Of a stretch of 64,000 nucleotides of DNA, positions 40,614 to 43,728 are shown piece after piece (positions within the stretch are counted from its first letter, which is position 1; every line of letters starts with the position of its first letter). Source of the stretch: Halorubrum salsamenti (GTDB taxonomy: Archaea; Halobacteriota; Halobacteria; Halobacteriales; Haloferacaceae); contig NZ_VCNL01000001.1 of assembly GCF_007671685.1 (NCBI RefSeq), forward strand, positions 124,001 through 188,000. The letters run 5' to 3'. The position numbers and the translations under genes were made by a program. The notes under the pieces were generated by a model. It saw nothing but the letters and a program-made list of their open reading frames with translations. It was not told the DNA's origin and searched no databases.

Positions 40614-40790
40614 ATGGACGTTCCGTACGACCTCAACAGCTACATTCGGGTGCTGAAACTGGCGAGCACGCCGAGCACCGACGAGTTCCTCCAGGTGTCG
40701 AAGATCGCCGGTGCCGGGATCCTCCTCATCGGCTTCATCGGCTTCCTGATGTTCGCGATCATGAGCCTCCTGCCGGGGGTCGGCGCGTAA
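40614..40790 (+). CDS. secE: Preprotein translocase subunit SecE
   Basis: A 58-residue Sec61-gamma-type protein. It begins MDVPYDLNSYIRVLKLASTP, followed by TDEFLQVSKIAGAGILLIGF, a single transmembrane helix (~33-53), and a short tail. SecE clamps SecY in the protein-export channel. The family's amphipathic helix with the conserved basic and Pro residues is present. The stop TAA (40788-40790) shares its last A with the ATG of spt5, so translation is coupled. The gene order ftsZ1-secE-spt5 is common in haloarchaea. Confidence 0.92.
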   Translation: MDVPYDLNSYIRVLKLASTPSTDEFLQVSKIAGAGILLIGFIGFLMFAIMSLLPGVGA

Positions 40791-41242
40791 TGCCGATCTT
40801 CTCGGTCAAGACCACCGCGAGCCAGGAGCGGACCGTCGCCGACATGCTCGCGGAGAAGGAGATGCCGGAGATCCAGGCTGTCATCGCCCCCGATCAGCTG
40901 ACGAGCTACGTGATGGTCGAGGCGACCGACGGCAGCGTGTTCGCTCGGATCCTCGACGAGATCCCCCACGCTCGCGGCGTGATCCAAGGCTCGGATGGAC
41001 CGGCGAGAAGCCCCTTCTCCGAGGTCGAGCACTTCCTCTCGCCGACCCCCGACGTGGAGGGGATCGCCGAGGGCGACATCGTCGAGCTGATCGCCGGGCC
41101 GTTCAAGGGTGAGAAGGCCCGCGTCCAGCGGATCGACGAGGGGAAAGACCAGGTGACCGTCGAGCTGTACGAGGCGACCGTCCCCATTCCGGTGACGGTC
41201 CGCGGCGACCAGATCCGCGTGCTCGACTCGGACGAGCGCTGA
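40790..41242 (+). CDS. spt5: Transcription elongation factor Spt5
   Basis: A 150-residue archaeal Spt5/NusG. Residues 1-~85 form the NGN domain (MPIFSVKTTASQERTVADML; VIAPDQLTSYVMVEA; ILDEIPHARGVI), which binds the RNA polymerase clamp with Spt4. Residues ~90-145 form a KOW domain (GDIVELIAGPFKGEKARVQRID). It increases processivity of RNA polymerase. It overlaps the secE stop by one base, so the two are one operon. Confidence 0.94.
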   Translation: MPIFSVKTTASQERTVADMLAEKEMPEIQAVIAPDQLTSYVMVEATDGSVFARILDEIPHARGVIQGSDGPARSPFSEVEHFLSPTPDVEGIAEGDIVELIAGPFKGEKARVQRIDEGKDQVTVELYEATVPIPVTVRGDQIRVLDSDER

Positions 41243-41336: not shown

Positions 41337-42299
41337 ATGTTCGGTTCCGGCGTGCCGGCGGTTCTGAGCCTGTTGCCGGACACGTTCACGTTCGCCTGGC
41401 TCGTAGCGATCCTCTTCGCCGTCGCGTGGCTGCTCGACAGCCGCGGGCTGGCGGCGGGTCGATCGCTCGCGGCCGGTACGTGGGCGCTGTTCGGCCTCTT
41501 CTGGCTGACGACGGTCCCGTACTTCGCGTTCGAACACCAGAGCTACGTCGAGTCGATCCTCGCGCTCGTCGGGGTGCCGGCCTGTCTGTACGCCGGGTAC
41601 CTCCTGTACAACGGGCGGGCGTCGCTGTTCACGCTCACGCGGGCGATCGCGATCATGCTGTTCATCTACCTCCCGTTCGAGACGATCCCGGCGTTCACGC
41701 TCGCCGGCGTCGCGTTCCCCGAGCCCCGCCGTGTCCTCATCGAGGTCGTCGCGACCCAGACCGGGATGCTCATCGACCTGCTCGGCTACGCTCCGGAGCG
41801 GGTGGCGAGCAGCGAGGGGTACGACGCGGCCTACTTGTGGACGCTCGACGACGGCCACACCTACCGGATCGACATCGTGCTCGCCTGCACGGGACTCGGG
41901 AGCATGGCGATCTTCGGCGGCCTCGTCGCGGCGGTCGAGGCGCCGCTACGACGGAAGATCCGCGGGCTCGCCGTCTCGGTCTCGCTCATCTATGTCCTCA
42001 ACATCCTCCGGACGACGTTCATCTCGATCGTCGCGGGCAACCAGTACATGCAGTGGTACCCCGACATCGTGTTGACGATGTTCGGCGCGAGCGACCCCTA
42101 TCGCGTGTCGTTCCTGATCTCCGACCGCATCATGAGCCAGCTGCTCGCGGTCGTCGCGCTGATCGGGATCACTTTCCTCGTCGTGCGAGAGCTGCCGGAG
42201 CTCGCGGTCATTCTCGAAGACGTGCTCTACCTGCTCACCGGCGAGGAGCACGACCTGACGGAGGCGCTCGATCTCCCCCGGGAGCCGACCAACCGCTGA
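41337..42299 (+). CDS. artA: Archaeosortase A
   Basis: A 320-residue, ~8-helix membrane transpeptidase that cuts the C-terminal PGF signal of surface proteins and allows their lipid attachment. The catalytic cysteine is Cys184 in DIVLACTGLGSM; Arg225 in NILRTTFIS and Arg264 in ISDRIMSQ complete the triad. The spacing (41 and 39 residues) equals that known for Haloferax ArtA (Cys173, Arg214, Arg253). Two likely substrates lie in this window: the surface glycoprotein (28029) and BtuF (59448). TATA-like GGCTTTATCC near 41305-41314. Confidence 0.93.
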   Translation: MFGSGVPAVLSLLPDTFTFAWLVAILFAVAWLLDSRGLAAGRSLAAGTWALFGLFWLTTVPYFAFEHQSYVESILALVGVPACLYAGYLLYNGRASLFTLTRAIAIMLFIYLPFETIPAFTLAGVAFPEPRRVLIEVVATQTGMLIDLLGYAPERVASSEGYDAAYLWTLDDGHTYRIDIVLACTGLGSMAIFGGLVAAVEAPLRRKIRGLAVSVSLIYVLNILRTTFISIVAGNQYMQWYPDIVLTMFGASDPYRVSFLISDRIMSQLLAVVALIGITFLVVRELPELAVILEDVLYLLTGEEHDLTEALDLPREPTNR

Positions 42300-42382
42300 C
42301 GCGGTGTCGCACGGACGCCCGCTTTCTGACTGAATGTTGACACACAGTAAGCTATAGGCGTCGCTGTCGACTGATTCGGCGT

Positions 42383-42487
42383 ATGAACGCGACGACTCGG
42401 TCGGTGCGAGCGGTGCGAGGTCGGCAGCGGATGCGGCGACGGTCGGTCCGACGCCGCCGCCGACGACGAGGTGACCCCCCGTGTTGA
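42383..42487 (+). CDS. Candidate Arg-rich leader ORF upstream of the MgtC-like gene
   Basis: A 34-codon ORF whose stop (TGA, 42485-42487) overlaps the GTG start of the next gene by 7 bases. A TATA-like GCTATAGG (42351-42358) lies 25-32 bases upstream of its ATG, so a transcript would begin at this ATG as in leaderless genes. The peptide has 15 arginines, seven in a row (codons 23-29, four of them the uncommon CGA), and ends GDPPC. Such features stall ribosomes, so it may regulate translation of the downstream gene. Chance ORFs with Arg codons are frequent in GC-rich DNA, hence the moderate confidence. Confidence 0.4.
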   Translation: MNATTRSVRAVRGRQRMRRRSVRRRRRRRGDPPC

Positions 42488-43728
42488 GCGCCGTCGACCC
42501 GCTGGTCTACCTCCAGACGAACGTCTCGAAGTTGGTCCTGGCGACCGCGTTGGGGATGTTCCTCGGACTGGAGCGGGAGTGGTCTCAGAAGTCCGCGGGG
42601 ATCCGAACGTTCGCGCTGATTAGCCTCGCGGCGGCCGTGTTTTCGCTGCTCGGCGACGACGGGCTCCTGATCGTCGGCGGCGTGCTGATCGTCGCCATCG
42701 CGGTGCTGCTCGCGGTCCGGAGCTTCGTCGAGGAGGAGGTCGACGGGCTCTCGCTGACGACGTCGGTGTCGATGCTCGTCACGTACGGGGTGGGCGCGCT
42801 CGTCGCCGAGGGTTTCTTCATCGAGGCGGTGACGGTGGCCATGCTCTCCTCGCTGCTGCTCGTGTTGAAGCGGGAGCTCCACCAGTTCGCGTGGGGGCTC
42901 TCCCGGGAGGAGGTCCGCAGCGCGGTCGAGTTCACGATCCTCGCGTTCGTCGTCTTCCCGCTGCTCCCGGCGGAGACTATCGACCCCTGGGGCGCGGTCC
43001 AGCCCCGGCTCATCTGGTCGCTGGTCGTCGCGGTCAGCGCCATCGGCTTCGTCAACTACGTGCTCGTGAAGCGGTACCAGGGACGCGGTTACGCGGTCAC
43101 CGGCTTCTTCGGCGGGCTGGTGAACTCCACCGCGGTCGTCGCGGAGATGGCGAAACGCGCGAAGGGGCGGGCGGACTTACTCGACATCGCGGTCGGGTCG
43201 ATCCTGCTTTCGAACGCCGCGATGGCCCTCCGGAACGCCGCGGTCGTCGCCGTCTTCGTGCCGGAGGCGGCTCTGATCGTCGGCGCGCCGCTGGGCGCGA
43301 TCACGGCCGCCGGCGTGGCGATCGCGGTGTGGCGCAGCGACTGGCGGACGTCGATGGAGGCGGAGCTCACCTCTCCGTTCAGCCTCCGGAACGCGCTGAC
43401 GTTCGGGGCGCTGTTCCTCCTCGTGCTGCTCGTCTCGGCGGGCGCCGAACGGACGTTCGGCGCGGGCGGGTTCGTCGCCACGGCGTTCCTCGCGGGGCTC
43501 GTCTCCTCCGGAACGGCGACGACCACGGCCGTCTCGCTTCTGGGAACCGGACAGATCACGGTCGACACCGCGGTCGCGGGGGTCGTTGCGGGAACGGTCG
43601 CGAGCGTCCTCGTCAAAACGGTGTTCGCCGCGACAATCACGCGAGACCTGGTCCGGCCGGTGCTGTTCTGGAACCTCGTGTTGATCGCGGTGGGGATCGC
43701 GGTCGGTGCGCCGCTTCTCTTCTTATAA
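42481..43728 (+). CDS. MgtC/SapB-type membrane protein with DUF4010
   Basis: A 415-residue polytopic protein with ~12 hydrophobic segments. The first ~140 residues are MgtC-like (LATALGMFLGLEREWSQKSAGIRTFALISLAAAVFSLLG), with the conserved Glu-Arg-Glu and Arg. The remainder is the DUF4010 region (GFFGGLVNSTAVVAEMAKRA; FLAGLVSSGTATTTAVSLLG). Role is unproven; relatives relate to Mg2+ or stress homeostasis. The GTG at 42481 is the furthest upstream start possible, as an in-frame TGA lies at 42472-42474. That leaves a ~100-base leader containing the Arg-rich ORF. Confidence 0.8.
   Translation: MLSAVDPLVYLQTNVSKLVLATALGMFLGLEREWSQKSAGIRTFALISLAAAVFSLLGDDGLLIVGGVLIVAIAVLLAVRSFVEEEVDGLSLTTSVSMLVTYGVGALVAEGFFIEAVTVAMLSSLLLVLKRELHQFAWGLSREEVRSAVEFTILAFVVFPLLPAETIDPWGAVQPRLIWSLVVAVSAIGFVNYVLVKRYQGRGYAVTGFFGGLVNSTAVVAEMAKRAKGRADLLDIAVGSILLSNAAMALRNAAVVAVFVPEAALIVGAPLGAITAAGVAIAVWRSDWRTSMEAELTSPFSLRNALTFGALFLLVLLVSAGAERTFGAGGFVATAFLAGLVSSGTATTTAVSLLGTGQITVDTAVAGVVAGTVASVLVKTVFAATITRDLVRPVLFWNLVLIAVGIAVGAPLLFL

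Follow-up and report, generated by a model that had tools for sequence, protein, structure and literature searches.

The window analysed here is a 64,000-nt stretch of DNA from Halorubrum salsamenti. Within it, ftsZ, a 58-aa ORF, nusG and artA are followed by a gap, an MgtC/DUF4010 gene and then two CBS-domain genes on the opposite strand. The gap between artA and the MgtC-like gene measures 181 nt and holds a TATA element and the start of a short leader ORF (the mini-ORF). The features are:

41337..42299, + strand: archaeosortase A gene (artA), the upstream neighbour; TIGR04125 at 352.7 bits.
42353..42356, + strand: TATA of the promoter, 30 nt ahead of the leader ATG.
42383..42487, + strand: leader mini-ORF of 34 codons, probably leaderless; frame and end kept in 50/50 Halorubrum loci.
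42468..42474, + strand: Shine-Dalgarno (SD) match GAGGTGA within the mini-ORF, complementary to the anti-SD and conserved in relatives.
42481..42487, + strand: stretch shared by the two ORFs, from the main start GTG to the mini-ORF stop TGA, whose last base is base 7 of the main ORF.
42481..43728, + strand: MgtC/DUF4010 membrane-protein gene with a GTG start, 415 aa and domain matches.

The box GCTATAGG (42351-42358) contains the TATA, and the mini-ORF runs from the ATG at 42383 to the TGA at 42485-42487, encoding 34 residues of which 15 are Arg, seven of them in succession. The main frame is closed upstream by a TGA at 42472-42474, which excludes a longer main ORF and is itself part of GAGGTGA. 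This 7-nt match to the anti-SD, taken from the 3′ end of the 16S gene of the same genome (...GGATCACCTCC), lies six bases ahead of the main GTG. The original prediction had described the box, the leader with its coordinates and arginines, the stop 7 bases inside the GTG start and the in-frame stop at 42472, and the sequence agrees on each point; the SD match had escaped it. The main protein scores 76.6 bits against MgtC PF02308 (cutoff 31.4) and 173.8 bits against DUF4010 PF13194 (cutoff 30). It belongs to the MgtC family through PF02308 but is a two-domain protein with DUF4010, and against the NCBIfam MgtC equivalog it reaches 34.4, short of the cutoff of 255. No paper naming both DUF4010 and MgtC was found in the open literature. 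Further upstream, the 58-aa ORF (40614-40790) ahead of nusG, which we take to be secE from its position, shares one base with nusG (40790-41242) in a TGATG, a usual coupled pair.

Orthologues were collected from the named genomes (80 loci) and from further genomes of the genus and family. The Halorubrum group comprises 50 distinct loci of 72-100% identity, from which duplicates, the divergent second copies L152 (genome G010) and L272 (G000) and three genomes of the genus without the gene were excluded; main starts were curated in eight of the 50 for an N-terminal offset. All 50 have a mini-ORF in one and the same frame, with its end at +1, +4 or +7 relative to the main start. Frame-disrupting indels in close relatives, which the original prediction had named as evidence against the leader, were absent from the 50 loci. 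A mechanical rule, taking the last TATA[AGT] within 230 nt and then the first ATG at least 18 nt behind it, yields a leader in 42 of the 50, and in 41 of these the ATG lies in frame 2 mod 3 and its ORF ends at +1, +4 or +7. The exception is L009, where the rule picks an ATG 20 nt behind the box and the next ATG, about 30 nt behind, conforms. The eight loci in which the rule fails all carry a mini-ORF too, unchanged in frame and end; in one of them, L017, inspection by eye shows TATAGG 30 nt ahead of the ATG, the rule having taken a later AT-rich match. Leader starts were curated in these eight and in L009, and the choice of in-frame start leaves the frame relation unaffected. The spacing from box to ATG is 29-30 nt in nearly all boxed loci.

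The length of the leader, from its start codon to the main start, takes 20 values between 41 and 170 nt, and every one of the 50 is 2 mod 3. Mapped onto a quickly built maximum-likelihood tree of the main genes, in which support falls below 80 on 12 of the 47 inner branches, this length changes at least 27 times over the 50 rows and 26 times over the 48 rows with artA, and the frame class does not change once. The spacer between the artA stop and the mini-ORF start, used as a control, undergoes 32 changes, 19 of them of class, and its three classes are populated 18/16/14. At the rate of the spacer, zero class changes in 26 would have a probability of about 7e-11 if changes were independent; some of the leader changes are repeats growing by multiples of three, so that the frame statistic is weaker and the true figure not as extreme.

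A dolichyl-phosphate-type glycosyltransferase gene (G000:C1:84030; L212-L241) served as a control gene. It is preceded in 30/30 loci by ATGAGCGTRTGGGT, 76-200 nt upstream, with a conserved ATG whose frame is not conserved: the ATG stands at 19 distances, falls into classes of 16/9/5 and opens frames with stops from -91 to far within the gene. Perhaps ATGAGCGTRTGGGT is part of a neighbouring gene or of the promoter. A loose criterion that accepts any ATG up to 200 nt away, provided its frame stops at +1 to +10, is satisfied by 22 of the 30 control loci and is therefore not discriminating alone; the argument relies instead on conservation of the frame of a fixed ATG. The relatives of a further candidate control gene proved too distant for use.

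In seven loci (L013, L114, L015, L115, L014, L043 and L020), a single clade of the gene tree with SH-aLRT 91, the promoter is lost and artA, the mini-ORF and the mgtC-like gene are arranged as an operon. Here 14-18 nt separate the artA stop from the mini-ORF, whose start is preceded by an SD-like sequence matching at 6, 6, 6, 7, 7, 8 and 8 of 8 positions; in L013 and L114 a perfect GGAGGTGA stands six bases ahead of its ATG. Judging from this layout, artA would be the cotranscription partner in the clade. Since the mini-ORF is present there, it has outlasted the loss of the promoter.

Within a single genome, the arrangement does not stand out. A scan of 464 kb of the same genome covered 212 genes with an upstream gap of 70-400 nt. 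In 4 of them, an ATG mini-ORF with a box-like motif 22-34 nt before it ends at +1 to +10, one of the four mini-ORFs being secE before nusG, against a mean of 4.6 when gene starts were exchanged; on these rough gene calls there is no genome-wide excess in the 464 kb scanned, and no claim is made that the arrangement is common genome-wide. Composition alone keeps 83% of shuffled leaders open. Because the arrangement is at chance level in one genome, the evidence has to be comparative.

When GGAGGTGA is compared with the sequence up to 22 nt from the main start, the highest agreement is 7/8 in 12 of the 50 loci, 6/8 in 24 and 5/8 in 14. A match of 6/8 or better is thus found in 36 loci, against 11% of random main-gene windows, and in 31 of the 36 it sits at -14. 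In the minimum free energy (MFE) fold of the window leader, the SD is paired with GGUCUACCUC of the main gene (predicted pairing of GAGGUGACC with GGUCUACCUC across 42468-42518). This fold is not unusual relative to shuffles (z +1.3), and over the 50 loci the accessibility of SD and start resembles that of within-gene controls. A Salmonella-type stem-loop attenuator was considered as a candidate and finds no support in the z score of this MFE fold or in the ordinary accessibility.

The encoded peptides differ widely. The mini-ORFs span 15-57 codons, and their products range from MNATTRS... to the Gly/Asp/Phe repeat MRPARDDFGDFDGFGDFGDLGDSDGFDRGDRP of L114 and the MNRTTRPFAAAIVD...GGGEVAG of L033. 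Arg makes up 9-50% of residues over the 50 loci, with a mean of 0.32 against 0.23 in shuffles, and the excess reaches at least 3 standard deviations only in the window locus L081 (z 3.1), in L039 (5.0) and in L001 (3.8). L013, L114, L027 and L033 have no Arg run, and their anatomy is unchanged. Of the features the leaders have in common, a C-terminal RRGD.PC comes largely from translating the SD and start codon in the leader frame, and an N-terminal [AT]TR[SD] recurs. Diversity at the three codon positions of 13 leaders of equal length is 0.24/0.19/0.35 (p=0.017), compared with 0.06/0.02/0.20 in the main gene, a pattern of weak constraint on the peptide.

Outside Halorubrum the arrangement is patchy. 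All three loci of the genus coded g44 have an overlapping mini-ORF (ends at +4, +4 and +10), and in the genus coded g6 a mini-ORF ends between -3 and +4 in 10 of 11 loci, the exception being L139 (ends at -2 and -3 were identified by eye). Of the more diverged copy in Haloferax (L191-L200), 9 of 10 loci carry an ORF of 11-21 codons ending in TGATG or TAATG at the main ATG, and L196 differs; in the other Haloferax type, L136 has TGATG and L137 a stop 4 nt before the ATG. L151 (g52) has ATGA. Under the +1 to +10 rule, no mini-ORF was found in L054 and L131 (68-71% identity), in L135 and L149, or in any of the 16 loci L153-L168 from other genera. Many such loci look leaderless at the main ATG. 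Part of the loci L202-L210 was not counted, and no mini-ORF was seen at the second, distant MgtC-like copy of the window genome. Loose-criterion matches with a GTG start in Natrialbaceae look like chance and were left uncounted. Eight further Natrialbaceae loci (L028, L030-L035 and L038) were left out because, by eye, the overlap (ATGA) seems to involve a full-length upstream gene; there too, the MgtC-like gene would stand second in a coupled pair, behind a different first partner. At another gene, a 24-codon ORF (MLRTTPRRRDRSESEYGSHAYPPI; L178, G000:C17:28527-28601) begins just downstream of the preceding gene's stop, and its end forms ATGA with the start of an amidohydrolase-like gene; most of the relatives found are only about 50% identical.

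When the locus data are set beside the H. volcanii literature on leaderless transcripts and coupling, the simplest mechanism combines a leaderless start, termination on the GTG and SD-aided re-initiation. Judging from the box spacing, transcription would begin at or next to the mini-ORF ATG, and the ribosome would initiate there on the leaderless end. It would translate 15-57 codons, the peptide itself being of little importance, terminate on the MgtC-like start codon and re-initiate there, aided by the SD motif inside the mini-ORF. We consider it highly probable that the ORF is a leaderless coupling mini-cistron delivering ribosomes to the MgtC-like gene by termination-reinitiation, with selection acting on its frame, openness and end position. 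The start of transcription, the translation of the mini-ORF and the dependence of the main gene on it are features that we infer from sequence. Of the leader with re-initiation that was originally proposed, the re-initiation part gains from the conservation of frame and overlap, and the leaderless start is probable from the spacing of the box. Against the coupling reading stand the 14 loci with an SD match of 5/8 at best, the genera without a mini-ORF, which seem to manage via a leaderless main start, and the chance-level frequency in a single genome together with the open frames of most shuffled leaders. The last two points would favour a chance ORF in G+C-rich DNA, yet a frame kept in 50/50 loci through 26 length changes, next to a spacer and a control gene that vary freely, refutes this explanation unless the tree or the alignments are grossly wrong, and it is scarcely credible. 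A programmed frameshift fusing the leader to the main protein could make use of the C6 run ahead of the GTG in the window; the run is missing in relatives (10 shown), where the start codon and its preceding SD are conserved instead, leaving this proposal with next to no likelihood.

The original prediction gave weight to arginine: a shortage of Arg-tRNA would stall the ribosome on the Arg run and so control re-initiation at the MgtC-like gene. The Arg content of the window leader, the excess over shuffles in three loci and the use of CGA for 7 of its 15 Arg codons, compared with 12% in eight window genes, speak for such an attenuator. The run, however, is not conserved. Acidic or Gly/Ala-rich leaders (L013, L114 and L033) are anatomically alike, the RRGD end results from translation of the SD in the leader frame, and we know of no link between the main protein and arginine. 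An Arg-responsive attenuator is accordingly very unlikely. The poly-Cys attenuators, a sub-class of the mycobacterial coupled ORFs that Canestrari reportedly described in 2020, are said to sense an amino acid; the Halorubrum leader offers no support for such sensing. A small peptide acting in trans would account for the weak third-position excess among the 13 leaders and for the recurrent [AT]TR[SD], but the ORF varies greatly in length and composition, changes much faster than the main gene and is always tied to the start of this one gene, so that a trans-acting product seems even more remote. A conditional control element of another kind, responding to initiation mode or the general state of translation beyond ribosome loading, would fit long-term conservation at one gene without genome-wide enrichment; a signal, a structure and a peptide motif were looked for and none was found, and we regard it as unlikely. 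Rather doubtful, though somewhat easier to entertain, is an archaeal control valve, in which the efficiency of initiation at a 5′-terminal AUG and, in the window's clade, a slow Arg/CGA-rich stretch would set the number of ribosomes reaching the MgtC-like protein. If true, archaea would have their own version of the bacterial mgtC leader ORFs, one that needs no RNA structure and persists despite a change of promoter and initiation mode.

The coupling reading has precedents for each of its parts. Most H. volcanii transcripts are leaderless and an SD in the 5′-UTR does not drive initiation (PMC3986360); haloarchaea in general begin most of their transcripts at the AUG, and SDs are not used by them for de novo initiation in 5′-UTRs (PMC3986360, PMC6728339). 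Coupling was strict in 9/9 close or overlapping H. volcanii pairs tested, and the haloarchaeal SD is used at overlaps (Huber et al. 2019, PMC6728339). The Halorubrum locus shares with these pairs the stop/start overlap, the SD inside the upstream ORF and the haloarchaeal setting, and overlap with an SD of 6/8 or better in the upstream ORF is found in 36 of the 50 loci. It differs in its upstream partner, which is an annotated gene in the H. volcanii pairs, whereas in Halorubrum the message opens with a mini-ORF that looks dispensable. The locus suggests how an SD-preceded GTG gene could be translated from a leaderless message, via a throw-away mini-gene, and the pair offers a simple system in which to test ribosome hand-over in archaea.

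The parallel to the mgtC leader of Salmonella, drawn in the original prediction, fares less well. In Salmonella, the leader attenuates transcription, and its stem-loops contain an ORF rich in proline (PMC3641672). Short ORFs ahead of an MgtC-domain gene, one of them rich in a single amino acid, are common to both; the mgtM/mgtP leader has alternative stem-loops and, in the available part of that account, no such start overlap, whereas the Halorubrum leader overlaps the start codon, folds in an ordinary manner and precedes a protein of another family subtype. A statistical study of leader genes that lie close to structural genes in bacteria (Korolev 2016, PMC4833913) and 16 uORFs with low isoelectric points, listed for H. 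volcanii leaders of 150-250 nt (Babski 2016, PMC4983044), also concern short ORFs that precede a main gene or are thought to supply it with ribosomes. The former is confined to bacteria and to statistics, and the accessible portion of the latter contains no analysis of overlap or conservation.

A close likeness is that to mycobacteria, where leaderless small ORFs are coupled by RTGA to the next gene and the linkage, not the sequence, is sometimes conserved (Shell et al. 2015, PMC4633059). A small ORF, in this case probably leaderless, a TGA overlapping an RTG main start and conservation of linkage rather than peptide recur in Halorubrum, where a stop overlapping the main start is found in 50/50 loci and the +7 form extends the type. 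Unlike the ribosome-profiled mycobacterial cases, the present one is archaeal, includes overlaps at +7 and is supported by genus-wide conservation of frame. Such conservation, set against a free-running adjacent spacer, provides a comparative signature for archaeal coupling mini-cistrons missed by annotation. In the open literature, as far as its accessible texts go and with closed journals outside the scope, no report of an archaeal leaderless coupled mini-ORF was found. A conserved coupling mini-cistron is well supported by the comparative sequence data; its archaeal leaderless form would be new, whereas the coupled small ORFs of mycobacteria and the full-size overlaps of haloarchaea are known.
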